The position numbers and the translations under genes are program-made. Shown in pieces: positions 4,765-16,300 of a DNA stretch of 64,000 nt. Under the pieces are notes generated by a model. It searched no databases and was not told where the DNA came from. It saw nothing but the letters and a program-made list of their open reading frames with translations. The stretch's first letter is position 1. Every line of letters begins with the position of its first letter. The stretch comes from Clytia hemisphaerica (taxonomy: Eukaryota > Cnidaria > Hydrozoa > Leptothecata > Clytiidae): positions 1,272,373 to 1,336,372 of the forward strand of contig CACVBU010000362.1 in the NCBI GenBank assembly GCA_902728285.1. Direction: 5' to 3'.

Positions 4765-5275
4765 TATGTATTTCCATGTATACATATCACTCTTGTCATA
4801 GAATAGTTTATCACTAAATGAAAACTCAAATCTTTTTGACATCGCAAATGATAGTTATGCCATGATGACACTGTTTTGACCTCAATTCATATATATGGCT
4901 TTCTCTCAAATGCAATGATATTTTGTCTTTTTTGTGTTTGCCGATTATTTTCTTTGTGTGAACATGGTCAAAAAGATTGTTATGATGTATCATATGTAAA
5001 GCATATTCAGCTATTTCTTTCAGAGGTCTAAAACTCTTATTATTTCAAAAGTTTCTCGCTTAGCATTTGAGTAACAGTAGAAATATCATCAAATATTTAA
5101 AAAAAATGGGTCAGAAAAGGCTGAAGAAAGGAAAAAGTTATGACAAATTTTAGTGAACTTTATACGAGAACTCGATACCAAGAAGACAATTTTATAGTTG
5201 AAAATATATACTAATATAGCAACAGCAAAATTATTATGGGAACAAGGGTTGAGTTTTGAACAACTATTGTATAGC

Positions 5276-8200
5276 ATGAAGGACTTTTTTGCAAATATTT
5301 TTCAATTCGAATTAACAACGCAATGTAATTGGCTTCCAGCGAATCAGTTTTTATTCCAGCTGGCAAACATTTCCCTTGTATTGACTTATTTTGTTAAACC
5401 AAGTGGTCTTTATGAATTGATCCAGCTTCGCGTCTCTCTTACATGCGCTGGACTCTGTTTCGGACTATGGGGAGGAACTGTGATCTGCTCATTAGACTGT
5501 ATGGTATGGAATCTAGCCTTTACTGTTGGAAACGCATGTCATTTAGTGTACATTCTAGCCAAAATGTGGCCATCTCCTTTCAAAAATAGTCACCACGAAT
5601 TAATTTTTGTTAACGTTTTTGGACCTGTTGGTTTGAAAAGATATCAATTTAGGACATTGATGACTAAGGCTAAAGAGATACAACTACAGACTGGGGAGTA
5701 TTACGCAAGACAGGGTTACACCGATTCGAAGCATATTTCAATATTAGCTGACGGATGGTAAGCGCTGGCTACAGTAGAATATATTTATGTAATCTAGTAA
5801 GCTAGGTTGAATACTTGATTGTAAAAAAAAAGTCCCAGCCTTTATACCAATTTACTCTGGATTTCTGCGCTATGATAATGAATTCAGATAATATTAAAAA
5901 ACCCACTGATCTTATGTATGCACCAGGGGGATCGGTTTCTAGTTCACTTATTCTCTGTTTTCCGTGAGCGTGTTAACTCAATAATTCCAGATAATTTGAC
6001 GCCATTCAAAATTTGTGAATCTGTATCGGCTTTACAAGACAAGGAGCTTTTTGGGTACAATGGTGATGTTTGTTTCCATATGAAGTGTTATAATTCGAAA
6101 ACTACATAAAATTACAATGAAATTAATTTAGATTTATTTCAATTGCTCTGTTAACTTATCAATACTAACTTCAACAGGGTTAAGAATTTAGTTTTCTATA
6201 GGTACCGATCTTGATTCTTTCTTTTGATACAGTGTGGAAGTTTTGATTAATGGACAGTCGACCAACTATGTCGAACTATTCGAATTCTTAGATTCACCAG
6301 AATGGCTGACTCTGACGGATGATGATGCACCTTCAAAATATCAGGTTTCTACCTTTTGCTTATCTAATATTCTAATTTTATTTGCTTGTCACGCAAAATT
6401 CTTTGCTATTATTATCACGATCTAGAAAAATCGCTGAAATTCATCACCATGCAGTAAAAAGTAGCCCAAATCACGCATCGCATCCTTTAAATTCTTACCC
6501 TTTTGCACAGCACTTTGCGAAATCTTTATTTCTCCATCACGCAAAAAAAAATTTGGACTCATGCCACCACCACGCAAGGAAAAAGTCCTGATCACCAAAT
6601 CACGCAAACCCTCCGGGAGGGGGATGCTGGACTGATCCCTTAACTGGGTTAAGCCTACTATAAATGAGGTTAATTCAACTTTTAAGCGAAGAAGTAAGTT
6701 GATAGCCACTAATTTTTTGATTTGGTGAAAACGACGGAAACGTTTGTAGGGTAATCTAGTTTTCCCCGGCTCTTTTCGTCGCGTAGACTGCGTAAACTGT
6801 CTAAAGTAAATCTATTTCTTAGATCATCACTTTTCCATCAATAGGTTTCTTTAGTAGCTGCGGAAGATTCGGTTATCTATCAATTCCAAAGAAAAGACTT
6901 GTTTACAATCTTTCGTAAAGATGAACTCCTAAAGAATATCTTTGATTCCATCATTGGTAAAGACATCTGCAAGAAATTGTATTCATTACATCAATCCTTC
7001 TTGATGAAAGATTGTATAACCATAGTATAAGAAAGCCGCGGCTGGAATATGTACCGCATTGTCTTTTGAGTTAATTGCTGTTCCATCTCTGTCTCCGAGC
7101 TTTATAAGAACATCAAGATGCTCAGTTTATTATTGGTAGATAGTTTTTGAAATTTTTCCCTTATTCTCCTTTACAAAAAGCTTTTTTATTGCTAAATATC
7201 TTTGAATCTGTACCCAATAGAACACTTGAACTAATTTTGGACATATTTTAGGGGTATTTTGTGGAAGCAATGGTTTTTTGCCAAAATTGAAATTATAAGA
7301 ACCATATTCAAGATGAAACTTTCCTGTCAGTTTGAATGATAAATTTTGAAGGTGCTGGTTTGAAATTTTCACAGTAGTATCTTGATGTACTTTTTTATTG
7401 ATTTCTAAAAATATTTCACTGAAATATTGTGAAGGCATTCGAGGCACTTTATTAATTTTTGAGTTCTTTCAGCCCAGCCGTTTTGTGCTTGTTTAAAATT
7501 CTTATTGTTGATCTCTCCTTTACAATGATTTTATAATGCAAGTGTAATATCAAGGGCATATCGTTAATGTTTAAAACGCACTGAGAAGTGAATATTAACG
7601 ACAAAGCAATAAAGTCTACCATTAAAGATGCTACATTACTGATTTCTTGATCAACAAATAGTCTTCAAATACGACAGAGATAGAACAACAGAAATTCAGA
7701 TGTTATCATTCCAGCCGCGGCTTTCTTATACTATGGTATAACTTCGAAATTATGCGACCAGACTAAAGACGTATCATTCATCACTTATTCAGCAGGTTAA
7801 CTTTTATTAGCTTGTGATTTAAATACTCTCGCAGTTAATTGAAAATATAAGGGTAAATTTACTCAGGTAAAGCTTCTTCGTGTGCACAAACTTGTTATAG
7901 GCAAACTAAAATGATCGATTTACCATTCAAACCCGGCAGACGTGTATGCACCTTTTGAATTTGCTAATATACCGTTTCCTAGACTCGAGGCTATAACTCC
8001 TGACCACTTGATTTAAAAGGGTATAAACCAAATGCTTTTAGAAAGAATATAAAAATACCTTTTCAATGGTACCATAACCATTGCCTAACTTTCAAATTAC
8101 AAGCTTTTATGCCAATTTGAAATTTTGAAGTAAAAGAAAAAGTTGGAAATTTTCACATTTTTCAAAAAACGTCGCGCGCTGGAAAGGTTAAGATGGTGGG

Positions 8201-8715
8201 AAGGATTTGACCATTCTTCCACTACACGATATCATCACTCTTTTGCTGAACGGTAAAAATAAGGGTGAAAATTAGAAGGTTGACTATCTTGTGTTTAAAT
8301 TGGAGTTTTTTTTGTTCATTTTACAGCTAGTTTGTTGACTTCGAAACACCAAACATCGATCCCCGTCCCAATCACAGCGTCCACATTCATTCATTCACCA
8401 TGGCAACAAAAGAAAGAACTTCTGTTCCATACCAATAATGATTCCGCTGACATTAGCATAAATAGCACCAAAGCAACTGATATTACATGCAAGCGAAGAT
8501 CAAGTTACAGGACGCCAGAATTTCCTCATTTGACACCTGACCAGAGCCATTCTACACATTCGATGTCCATAGATTTTCCATTTGAACGAATTATTTCTCG
8601 CAATAATAAAAGTGACTCGTTCTATAAAGAAAGTGACGATACGATTGATGATCTCAAACTTAACCCTAACCTCGACAAACAGAAATTGATCAATCTTAAA
8701 GAAACTGATTTGTAA
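5276..8715 (+). CDS. Popeye-domain (POPDC/BVES-like) membrane protein, four coding exons, exon 3 split by a mobile element
   Basis: Popeye proteins are three-pass membrane proteins whose cytoplasmic Popeye domain binds cAMP. Exons: 5276-5757, 6233-6344, 6845-7018 plus 7741-7795, and 8327-8715. All joins use GT/AG and keep phase, giving 403 aa if the insert at 7019-7740 is left out. The start is the first Met of the open frame; a stop lies upstream in frame. A short extracellular N-terminus with a Cys is followed by membrane segments at about residues 25-40, 51-66 and 75-95. The Popeye domain follows, with FLDSPEW (179-185) and YQVS (197-200) standing for the family's phosphate-binding motifs FxDSPEW and FQVT, then IGKDI..KLYSL. 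The last exon is a Ser/Thr-rich tail. As the DNA stands, reading through the insert gives a stop four codons after the intact Ile256. The gene is therefore broken, or the insert is removed by splicing (donor at 7014, acceptor at 7714, in frame). Confidence 0.9.
5918..6109 (+). pseudogene. possible transposon-protein remnant in Popeye intron 1
   Basis: An open frame of about 63 codons with a run reminiscent of Cys/His-containing regions of cnidarian transposon-encoded proteins (..GYNGDVCFHMKCYNS..). It lies between Popeye exons 1 and 2, but those exons join in phase without it and give an uninterrupted Popeye domain, so I do not count it as a Popeye exon. The identity is a weak impression. Confidence 0.25.
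6365..6640. repeat. CACGCA-rich repeat in Popeye intron 2
   Basis: TCACGCA and close variants recur irregularly across this intron segment, ending in a CCCTCCGGGAGGGGG palindrome. A similar CACGCA-rich patch occurs at 56930-57265 in an intron of the second JmjC gene, which suggests a dispersed repeat family. No clear unit length and no coding potential. Confidence 0.5.
7019..7737. mobile_element. 719-bp terminal-inverted-repeat element inserted in a coding exon
   Basis: The left end ACCATAGTATAAGAAAGCCG and the right end match as inverted repeats over 30 bp without mismatch. The trinucleotide ATA flanks both ends (7016-7018 and 7738-7740), consistent with a 3-bp target duplication. The interior shows no transposase, so it is non-autonomous. 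Removing the element and one ATA restores an open Popeye frame (..KDCI then TSKLCD..), which shows the insertion came after the exon was in place. The right terminal repeat supplies an AG acceptor (TTCCAG ending at 7714), and the host sequence supplies a GT at 7014. Confidence 0.9.
7918..8031 (+). repeat. dispersed repeat, copy 1
   Basis: About 114 bp that reappear in reverse orientation at 27319-27419. Shared phrases are TTCAAACCCGGCAGAC (TTCAAACCCAGGAGAC in the other copy) and CTCCTGACCACTTGATTTAA. This copy is in Popeye intron 3 and the other in FGF intron 2. Confidence 0.6.
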
Positions 8716-11764: not shown

Positions 11765-12853
11765 TTATGAAACAAGATCAGACTGTGGCCCCTCCATTTC
11801 TTCGACGTAAATGCGTGTTGCCTGTTGCCACCCTGTAAACGCATCAGCGGTATTTTTACCTGCACCTGCACATTCACCAACATTGAAACCCACATTGATA
11901 TAACCAATTTTCGAAATCTTGCAACGTCCAGTAATAACTTGTGGTCGGTGAAGATTCTTTTCACGATTTCCTTTACCAAATTTCATATAGACTGTACCGT
12001 CTATCGGCACGGGTGTACATTCTTGTCCATTGAAAGTGACAAACCATCGGCTGCAGCAATCATCACAATTCCATATTCTTAGATTTGAAATCACCTCTAC
12101 CCTTAAATATGTTTCAATCGATTTCTTTCTGAACGTGCAAATCTGTAAAACGGGAGAAAAAAATTATTCACAATCAAACGATTTCTAAGTTCCAAAATGG
12201 AAAGCAAATGTTTTTCTCACCCAGAAAAACTGATCGCCTCGAAATGTTTTTCGAAATGTTTGAAATACTGAATTTTTGAAATTCTAATATTTTTAGTTAT
12301 CAGAGATCTTATCAAGCAAAAACACAACACAGTTTTATCTACCATGAATTCAATTTTAAAGTGCTTTACATACCTTAAGAAGACCTGCATCTAGTTCACT
12401 ATAAAAGCTTTTGTCCCAAGCACATTCTTTCCAATGTCTCTTCGGTGAGTCTTTTCCATTCATTCCATTTGCTCCGTTTATACCGTCTAATCCATCAATT
12501 CCATTTGAATCGTTTAACCCGTCCCTTCCATCGACTCCATCCCTTCCATTTGTTCCGTTCAAGCCGTCTTTTCCGTCAATTCCATTTAAGCCGTCTTTTC
12601 CGTCTTTTCCATCCATTCCATCTTTTCCATTTGTTCCGTTTAACCCATCTCTTCCACGCATTCCCATTTTGCAATCTTTTCCGTCCTTTCCGTGGATCCC
12701 ATCTTTTCCCTCTTTTCCGTCTACACCGTTTATTCCATCAATCCCATCAGCCCCATTTTTACCAGGTTTTTCTGCTGGTCCTTGTTTTCCATCTTTTCCA
12801 TCAATTCCGTCACGTCCGTCACGCCCGACTTTACATGAACTGTTACACTCTCC
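11765..12853 (-). CDS. collagen triple-helix repeat-containing protein 1-like (CTHRC1 family), two 3' exons
   Basis: Secreted glycoproteins of the CTHRC1 family join a collagen-like stalk to a Cys-rich globular domain. Exons 12374-12853 and 11765-12142 (minus strand) join in phase 0 (donor GTATGT, acceptor TTACAG) and encode 285 residues. The first exon is about 40 Gly-X-Y triplets, dominated by GKD, GRD, GID and GLN, with a few interruptions; proline is almost absent. WKECAW starts the globular domain. The second exon continues with NLRIWNCDDCCSRWFVTFNG, QECTPVPI, NLHRP, VGFNVGEC and FTGWQQATRIYVEEM, all family landmarks in order. The N-terminal exon with the signal peptide was not found; it should lie above 12853, probably beyond the retroelement at 13.4-16.5 kb. 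The stalk is clearly longer than in human CTHRC1. Confidence 0.92.
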
Positions 12854-13398: not shown

Positions 13399-16300
13399 TA
13401 ATAATAATAGTAATAATAATTTATTTACAACCACCCATTACTGGGTAAGGTTGGACATAGAGTCAGGACTCTCGCCCATGAGGCCTATTCACTTCAGAGA
13501 GTTACGACTCTATGTCGAACTATCAAAAAAAGAAAAAAAAACTTCAAAATTACTTTTTCTTGCTTAAGGCAAGAGTAAAATATTGGTTTAATAAAACATT
13601 TTTAAACTCCATAGCTTGGTCAAGTAACGATTTCGTTGACCGACCTCTTTTAGTGTAATGATCGTTATTGAAAGTTAGTAATTTACCAGTTCGTGTTACT
13701 GGCATACGAATGATATGACTAACGTAATGATGTTCCTGAGATTTTATAAAGAAGCTAACATCAGATGTTCCACATATATTATGAAGTTGATTGTTGTTAA
13801 TTGCATATCGATAGTCATTAGCATCCAGATTCACAAATCTGAATCCACCACGAATCATTCGACGGAGGAGATTTCGATACACAACATCCAAACGGTCAAA
13901 TTGTCTTTGGGTCAGATTCCAGTTCTGACAGGCGTATACTAGCCTACTTCGCACAAAGTTGTTCAGGAAAAGTATGCGAGTTTTCAGATTAATTTGAATA
14001 TTCTGAATTAAATTTGACATTTGTTGAAATTTAGTGTTAGCAAGCTGGATGCGGTAGTTTATCTCCTTTTCACCAGTGTTCGGCTGGTTACAATCGAGAT
14101 AGGCTCCCAGGTATTTGAATGCAGAAACATTGGCTAGATGGCATTCGTTTAATTCGACAATTGAGTTTGGATATGGAGAATCTACTGGATAATTGAGAAT
14201 CATCGTCTCTGTCTTTTGAGCATTGACAGATAGACCGAACTTGACGAAAACATTATCAAGAGGAATTGTTGCAATTTATAAACTCTCTTGATCTTTCAAG
14301 GAATAAGACTAAATCGTCGGCGTAACCGCTCCAGGGTAATATTGATAAGTTTGAGAGATTAGTGTTCTTTTTACGAGTCGATAATCTCTCTGCTCGTGAA
14401 AGAGAGCTAGTGCTGATTTGGTATTTGTGATCAAAGAACTTGATATCATCATTTAAGTGTGATTTCTCGAGTATCAGACGCATGACGAAATCGAGATATA
14501 AGTTGAACAAAAACAGGCTTTCTGGTCCACCCTGGTGGACAGACAGAAGATGTTTGGAATAATTCTCCTTCATAGGTTAGAGAGGTGTGTTGATAAAGTT
14601 TTTCCAATATCTTGATCATAATCGGTGACTTTTTGTCGGTGAAACGAAGACAAATTGTATCAAACAGCCATTTACGGGTTATATGATCGAAAGCGGCTGA
14701 GAGATCGACAAATAATAGATACAACGACTATTGTTTTCGATGACTGATTTGGTGTATTCTCTTTACTGTGTAAATCCCATCAGTAGTGGAGTCGGAATAA
14801 GATGATATTCGCAACGAGCTTGCAGATAGTAGATCCGATACTAAGACCCCGATACTTTGATACGTCCTTTTTTGAGCCTTTTCCTTTCCAGAGTGTTTTC
14901 AGATGGGAGTTCGGCGTTCGGTAAATCTAGATTTTCCAACAAGTTGTTGGTGATTCTTTGGATTACTTGAATCATTATCGGATGTGAACATTTCTTCAGT
15001 AGCTCTGCTTCAACGTCATTGCTTGCTTTATTATTTTTGAGGAGACGGATGTGTTTTTCTATTTCATCGGCTGTAGGTGGGAGGTCGTTGACGACAGTAC
15101 TGTCAGAAATCTTTCGAAGTTCCTTAACAAATTTCGGAAGTGTCTGATTTATTTCCTCAGGTGACGTATCAATTGATGGGTCAGTAGGGTTAAAATGTTT
15201 CTTAAAGTGTTCTAAGAGTTTATCGGTTGGCCGGTTGGGCAAGCATTGTTTGTTGGTTTGAGGGTAGTTTCCTGTCTTTTGGCACGATGAAATAGCTTTT
15301 CGATCTGCTTGTTGATAACCAAAATGTTCATTTTCTCAGCTTCAAGCCTGAAGTGTTCGTTTTTGAGATGACAAGCTCGTAGTCGAATCTTTTTACGAAT
15401 TCCCTTGATATCCTCAGGATTAACATTTTTTGATGGGAGCTCAGATTTTGTTTGGAAAAGTTCTGGGAGTTTGGCATCTGTTTTCCATGGAGGTGGTTGA
15501 GATTCAGATGTCATTGTAGGAAAGTAGATATTGGCAGATTCTTTGATCGTGTTTACAAGTTTTTCGTTTAGAAAATCGTTAGACTCTGAGTTAAGAACGT
15601 CATTAGAGTTAAGCTTTACATCATCTTTGAAAAGTCCAGTCATTGCTGGGGTGACTGCTTCGAAATCGATTCTCTTTTGACGTTTGGTATGGGTTCTGTT
15701 GATGTATCTTGCTTTCTTTGATGTTGGTGTACAAAGGTGTGCAACAACAAGACGGTGGTCGCTATCAAAGTCGAAAGAGTTAAACATGCGACAGTTTATA
15801 ACCAACTTGCACAGAGGATAAAATCGTATACCTTTTTCGACTTTCCATCTGGGGAGTGCCACGTAATTTGTCTGCAATTTTTATGCGTAAACCAAGTATT
15901 CAATACAGAAAATTTATTCAGTTCAAACAATTCGTGGAATCGTTCTCCATTGTCATTAACAATCAAATCGTTAATTATACTTCCTTCTCGTAACAAAGTG
16001 TTCGACCAAGCGGCGGATGTAGAAGCGTTGAAATCTCCGATGCAAATCAGTTTTTGGTTCTTTTTCAATGATTTAATTTGTTTACAGTATTCAATGTTCT
16101 ATAAAAAAATTTCTTTGACGACTCGATGCTTTCCTCTGTAGGAGCGTAACAGTTTATTATTTTCAATGAGCAGCTACGGATGATTGCATCAACAACAATA
16201 ATTCGAGCATCTACTGGTATTACTTCAACAATTTCTATCGACGAGTCTACTTTAATAACAATACCAACACCATGGGTTCGTTTGTTACTATGTCCCGACC

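Follow-up and report, generated by a model that had tools for sequence, protein, structure and literature searches.

A recent MITE insertion into a coding exon of a Clytia hemisphaerica Popeye gene, with candidate splice sites in its duplication and end repeat

An exon of a Popeye (POPDC) gene in the hydrozoan Clytia hemisphaerica is interrupted by a short DNA element, which raises the question of what becomes of this element in the mRNA. It may be kept and end the reading frame, or it may be spliced out and represent an intron just after its birth. The original prediction named both outcomes: either a knock-out that is fresh and allele-specific, or intron birth caught as a snapshot. Animal intron gain is rarely caught early. 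We examined the locus within a stretch of 64,000 nucleotides (hereafter, the window), along with other copies of the element in the genome.

The host gene was modeled with four exons, all of whose borders are GT-AG (Table 1). When the element and one duplication are taken out, the frame runs for 429 codons to a TAA; the predicted restoration of the frame is thus seen in the sequence and extends through the next exon. Exon 4 stays open in 10 of 20,000 mononucleotide shuffles. The predicted protein matches PF04831 over the cut-off (1.5e-32, 113 bits). This query included a further candidate exon, 5927-6054, that was later dropped for breaking the frame; identification as Popeye is unaffected, because exon 1 alone gives 86 bits in a profile search of the organism's own genome. 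A PDB sequence search with the same query returned no matches. The genome (417 Mb, 951 contigs) has POPDC matches at four loci, including the interrupted gene. Its mitochondrial cox1 piece (PF00115), beside which cob was recognized by eye, translates cleanly under table 4, with TGA as Trp and AGA/AGG as Arg. AGA/AGG falls at conserved arginine positions of cox1, so that a tunicate host is rejected; the code fits a cnidarian, and the cob-cox1 order makes a hydrozoan probable. Read by eye, none of the three paralogues has an intron at the insertion point, and in all three the homologous exon ends in phase 1, as it does in the interrupted gene. A search of the genome with the flanks, in one assembly, found this locus once and no empty allele. 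Intron 2 holds a dispersed repeat of another kind (window 6427-6630), with 39 further places scored at 71-76% identity.

Table 1. Features of the interrupted POPDC gene, its element, and related palindromes (window positions unless a contig is given; a slash marks the exon border)
Feature	Position	Strand	Remarks
POPDC exon 1	5198..5757	+	donor ATG/GTAAGC; provisional 5' end; first Met is residue 27 of the open frame
POPDC exon 2	6233..6344	+	acceptor GATACAG/; donor CAG/GTTTCT
POPDC exon 3, interrupted by the element	6845..7795	+	donor CAG/GTTAAC, phase 1
Stronger exonic cryptic donor TTG/GTAAAG	6957..6962	+	in frame with the 7714 acceptor; use would delete GKDICKKLYSLHQSFLMKDC
Left target-site duplication GTATAAC, 7 bp	7014..7020	+	source of the candidate weak 5' splice site ATT/GTATAA
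Short DNA element with inverted ends (MITE), 715 bp	7021..7735	.	from copy comparison
Left terminal inverted repeat, 28 bp, CATAGTATAAGAAAGCCGCGGCTGGAAT	7021..7048	+	holds a weak GT at 7025 and the in-frame TAA 7028-7030
AATAAA within the element	7608..7613	+	candidate premature poly(A) signal; ATTAAA also at 7621-7626
Right terminal inverted repeat	7708..7735	-	perfect reverse complement; + strand acceptor ATTCCAG ending at 7714
Right target-site duplication GTATAAC, 7 bp	7736..7742	+	
POPDC exon 4	8327..8715	+	hydrophilic C-terminal tail; 129 codons; stop TAA
Palindromes with perfect 7-bp duplications (L093-L096)	G000:C25:218151-218186, C43:99969-100004, C65:426284-426319, C108:337856-337891		

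An element with perfect inverted ends had been recognized inside an otherwise open exon, and this reading stands, while its details change. Copy comparison gives an element of 715 bp, where 719 bp had been claimed, and terminal repeats of 28 bp in place of 30 bp. The ATA first taken for the duplication belongs to a palindromic-looking border, and the true duplication is the 7-bp GTATAAC. The repeats of the POPDC copy start with CATAG and are perfect; the first 19 bases match the window at 2 places, against 0.02 expected. Of the stop-to-stop frames listed for the interior of the element, none exceeds 112 aa, and Rfam at gathering thresholds gave no match in the window. Near-perfect terminal repeats, duplications of fixed length and many short copies mark the element as a MITE.

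The family is dispersed through the genome, in which a 22-base end motif occurs 826 times exactly and 1,070 times with at most one mismatch. Subtracting two ends for each of 80 short palindromes described below, we estimate a family of roughly 450 copies. Our sample of it is a selected one: 40 loci match the POPDC copy best, and the rest are the first listed by contig number. Both ends were located at 80 sites, 75 of them long copies and 5 short palindromes, and the 7-bp duplication is perfect at 70. The consensus of these duplications is nTnnnAn: 57 of the 70 have the T at position 2, and 64 have the A at position 6; G comes first in 33 of 70 and C last in 34, and the preference reaches slightly into the flanks. 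Among 71 copies, 62 left ends and 63 right ends carry an identical 28-bp repeat. These 71 full copies, once aligned, differ from their consensus by a median of 26 substitutions. The POPDC copy has two private changes among them, one substitution and one missing base, and its nearest relative (L002) differs at 10 columns. Because its private changes are so few, the POPDC insertion is, by this sequence comparison, young within the sampled copies. Together with its identical end repeats, intact duplications and a frame intact on both sides, this bears out the description of the insertion as fresh. The intact downstream frame is uninformative on continued function.

The MITE probably derives from the P-element superfamily. 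In this regard, its duplications fall in the 7- to 8-bp class with a palindromic GT..AC preference. Galileo, a P-superfamily transposon, is described with 7- to 8-bp duplications and the motif GTANTAC (PMC4168063); the preference found here, GTnnnAC, is similarly palindromic. The genome also holds 150 scored matches to PF21787, a P-element-type transposase, some of them in open frames of 600-900 aa. An autonomous P-type element with identical ends was not found, long sampled insertions included. Namely, three candidate partners, L062 (1202 bp), L074 (2379 bp) and L077 (6864 bp), are element copies that carry other insertions; the one in L077 (G000:C108:442600-449800) is a 6.1-kb near-perfect inverted repeat (99%), each arm of which contains a C2H2 zinc-finger frame. 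The hAT superfamily, for which an 8-bp nTnnnnAn duplication is given (PMC3878927), was rejected on the 7-bp nTnnnAn duplications seen here.

The element ends also occur as short palindromes. Palindromes of 36 bp, exact or with one mismatch and joining 18 bp from either end of the element, are present at 80 places in the genome, 12 of which lie in a tandem array with an exact 1965-bp period (G000:C248:159304-180954). A search for 11-base ends with a spacer of 0-30 gave 71 places. Among the 50 distinct palindromes listed, 47 measure 36 bp (35 of 38 without the array), and the others 26, 28 and 29 bp. Five perfect palindromes were inspected with their flanks: four have perfect 7-bp duplications (Table 1), and one on C327 differs at 1 of 7 positions. 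A one-mismatch palindrome in L013 has a 7/7 duplication. On the simplest reading, these palindromes are probably excision scars in which long overhangs were joined in the style of P transposase. This enzyme leaves a 17-nt 3' extension (PMC10983969), which end-keeping long footprints would fit, with 18 bp per end here. Deletion by annealing of the self-complementary GCCGCGGC would yield the same 36 bp, and it is possible that the palindromes are tiny mobile elements. The cnidarian host and the unusual uniformity at 36 bp set this family apart from Galileo and P elements, and the palindromes are perhaps a readable excision record of a seemingly P-type element in a cnidarian.

What would the element do to the POPDC product? 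If it is retained, the frame ends as ...MKDCITIV-stop, ten bases into the element, so the immediate stop that had been foreseen is confirmed. Retention is predicted to remove 148 residues of tail; the Popeye domain is spared, because the Pfam match ends before the insertion. The exon had been called conserved, which holds for its part of the Popeye domain, whose end it contains. The insertion itself falls about 7-8 residues past the last Pfam-matched residue, and the tail beyond it has no Pfam match. "Knock-out" is therefore too strong a word to draw from the sequence: the Pfam-defined domain lies upstream, and retention predicts the loss of the C-terminal tail. The predominant transcript most likely includes the element, either in full or up to a premature end within it, and would encode POPDC without this tail. 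A 36-bp scar placed in POPDC keeps the same stop; therefore the allele would not revert by excision.

The alternative fate, removal by splicing, depends on the sites available. These were scored with approximate human weights. The GT at 7014 and the CAG ending at 7714 are present as originally predicted, and joining 7013 to 7715 replaces one C with SAAFLYYG, a net gain of 7 residues, and leaves the frame open. The donor scores -1.68, which 55% of the GTs in the window equal or exceed; the corresponding values for the three native donors of the gene are 8.98, 1.55 and 3.51. For the acceptor the score is 7.2, within the top 3.9% of AGs in the window, and the gene's own acceptors score 7.24, 8.26 and 8.94. 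With donors sought between 60 bases upstream of the duplication and 250 bases downstream of its start, seven in-frame GT-AG pairs were found, against a mean of 5.29 and a minimum of 3 in 100 shuffles of the interior. The top combined score belongs to 6957/7714 (10.99 versus 5.52 for 7014/7714), and 16 of the 100 shuffled interiors reach it. Since shuffles nearly match the observed number of pairs, an in-frame splice is a chance offer of such an element; the part beyond chance is the decent acceptor in the end repeat.

A broader version of the intron idea concerns the whole family. Of the 826 exact ends, palindrome ends included, 308 have a duplication that opens with GT, versus a GT frequency of 5.1% in the window. 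In the sample, 58 of 140 ends begin with GT and 13 score at least as high as the weakest of the gene's three native donors; among the 58, the donor at the POPDC insertion comes 31st. Splicing from a GT in the duplication to the CAG of the repeat takes out the first duplication together with the element as far as this CAG, leaving 21 nt, CCGCGGCTTTCTTATACTATG, with no stop in any frame. This remainder is the same in both orientations because the element ends are inverted, and 69 of the 71 copies have ATTCCAG at the right end, with the same number, 69 of 71, at the left. Such frame-neutral geometry is, as far as sequence can tell, the strongest form that the original intron idea could take. On this basis (a duplication opening with GT, in some cases GTAAG or GTGAG, ATTCCAG in both repeats and the 21-nt remainder), the family could be an inherent source of frame-neutral introns in an animal, with the POPDC copy as an intron just after birth, a proposal we regard as quite improbable. 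GTAAG or GTGAG occurs at nine ends genome-wide, and no convincing coding exon was seen at strong-donor ends (both flanks of six and 16 bases of one side for a seventh). The longest frames on the donor strand at GTAAG/GTGAG sites are 72 aa across the site (L067) and 77 aa ending there (L094), neither of which was assigned a Pfam family.

A family of introners would be expected to have many copies serving as introns in coding genes. We joined the flanks at 79 sites (75 long copies and 4 palindromes; the full copy of L013 was omitted, a palindrome in its flank having been paired automatically instead) and collected frames of at least 40 aa across the site, an approach that recognizes only frames with Pfam domains. 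There were 94 such frames, and 17 sites had none. Pfam was run on the longer arms of 89 of these frames and on the 23 shorter arms that have at least 25 aa. The shorter arms gave no match at 0.01, and the longer arms, at E up to 0.01, matched eight families with one member each: POPDC (the window copy), OTU, WWE_4, WWE, GIY-YIG, 7tm_3, PspA_IM30 and NPV_P10. In L025 (about 1735-2178, - strand), the element sits within an open frame of 166 aa, some 60 residues beyond an OTU protease domain in the same frame; the frame may be a host exon, and the insertion a second exonic one. The insertion falls outside the matched part of both the WWE frame in L060 and the 7tm_3 frame in L083, the latter match being below the cut-off; these two insertions are perhaps intronic. 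The GIY-YIG match in L014, also below the cut-off, looks like a retroelement, and by eye so do the L065 and L073 frames. Two long frames without a match at 0.01, of 263 aa in L041 (weak intein-domain match, 0.012) and 139 aa in L061, may be host exons. Overall, just one of the 79 sites lies clearly in a Pfam-recognized exon, and none of the other 78 sampled copies is clearly exonic by this Pfam-based measure. Nor is there an excess of open frames at insertion sites relative to points 500 bp away: the 59 sites with full flanks have 1.22 frames of at least 40 aa per site, 12 of them of at least 100 aa, against 1.43 per point, with 32 of at least 100 aa, at 118 control points.

The insertion of a MITE into a coding exon is already a familiar type of event. 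Maize Ds is a hAT element of a plant, and Giroux is reported to have found in 1994 that Ds in a coding exon makes a new intron, which is removed by splicing. Like Ds, the element in POPDC is a non-autonomous DNA element within a coding exon. Unlike Ds, which belongs to hAT, lives in a plant and reportedly had its splicing demonstrated, the POPDC copy is an animal case whose splicing is hypothetical. A literature search judged by titles and the openings of abstracts found no paper on introners of hydrozoans or cnidarians. Introners have been described that recruit the duplication for their 5' splice site, in Symbiodinium, or that add codons, in Aureococcus (PMC9860276). In the features outlined there, our elements resemble them: they are short, make duplications, have a potential donor in the duplication and an acceptor in the element, and would add codons. 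Two differences stand out against that outline, namely the lack of enrichment in open frames here and the standing of the family's copies, which are at most hypothetical introns.

Considering these results together, the event is real, young and of an ordinary kind, a MITE in a coding exon. The account in which we place good confidence is a recent MITE insertion, probably of the P superfamily, with mRNAs that keep the element or end in it, a tail-less POPDC, possible minor splicing and no reversion. The MITE would have entered exon 3 of one of the four POPDC loci by cut-and-paste, duplicating GTATAAC. The main mRNA would then retain the element or terminate in it, meet the stop ten bases in and encode a whole Popeye domain with its tail lost. 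A minor share may be spliced to the right-repeat acceptor from 6957 or 7014, and a typical excision would leave the 36-bp palindrome plus a second duplication, adding 43 nt. It is unlikely that the insertion acts instead as a new intron between the 7014 donor and the 7714 acceptor, with a POPDC longer by seven residues. Such an intron would benefit from the open frame, from an acceptor as good as the gene's own and from a remainder open in all frames; two of the three POPDC donors are also weak (1.55 and 3.51), GT is frequent at the start of the duplication, and the donor-from-duplication and codon-adding introners of PMC9860276 offer precedents. Yet the donor is one that 55% of window GTs equal or surpass, a better in-frame donor lies at 6957, in-frame pairs are expected by chance, none of the 78 other sampled insertions is clearly in a host exon, and the strongest-donor copies have no convincing coding exon as far as their flanks were read. 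Intron birth is thus a possible reading, given its open frame, but one disfavored on these grounds.

A splice from 6957 to 7714 would also keep the frame, giving a protein that lacks the 20 residues before the insertion and has a damaged end of the Popeye domain. We consider this outcome distinctly unlikely as the main one: it has the best combined score of the seven pairs, but a score equaled by 16 of 100 shuffled interiors, and its donor is exonic, lies in ancestral coding sequence and would remove conserved residues. It is most improbable that the assembly wrongly joined the element into the exon. One assembly represents the locus; against such an error, the clean 7-bp duplication fits the rule of the family, the coding frame is intact on both sides within one contig of 1.96 Mb, and the empty-site frame is exact. 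Even if the POPDC copy is merely disruptive, as in the account we favor, hundreds of like insertions provide a clean natural test of intron gain, in which the target preference supplies a possible 5' splice site and the repeats a possible 3' site that stays constant, in a genome whose RNA could be read.

Two further features of the window lie downstream of the gene. Broken frames at 13550-16100 (- strand) resemble a non-LTR retrotransposon by eye, and an open frame of 165 aa at 12356-12853 (- strand) is collagen-like, with glycine repeats.
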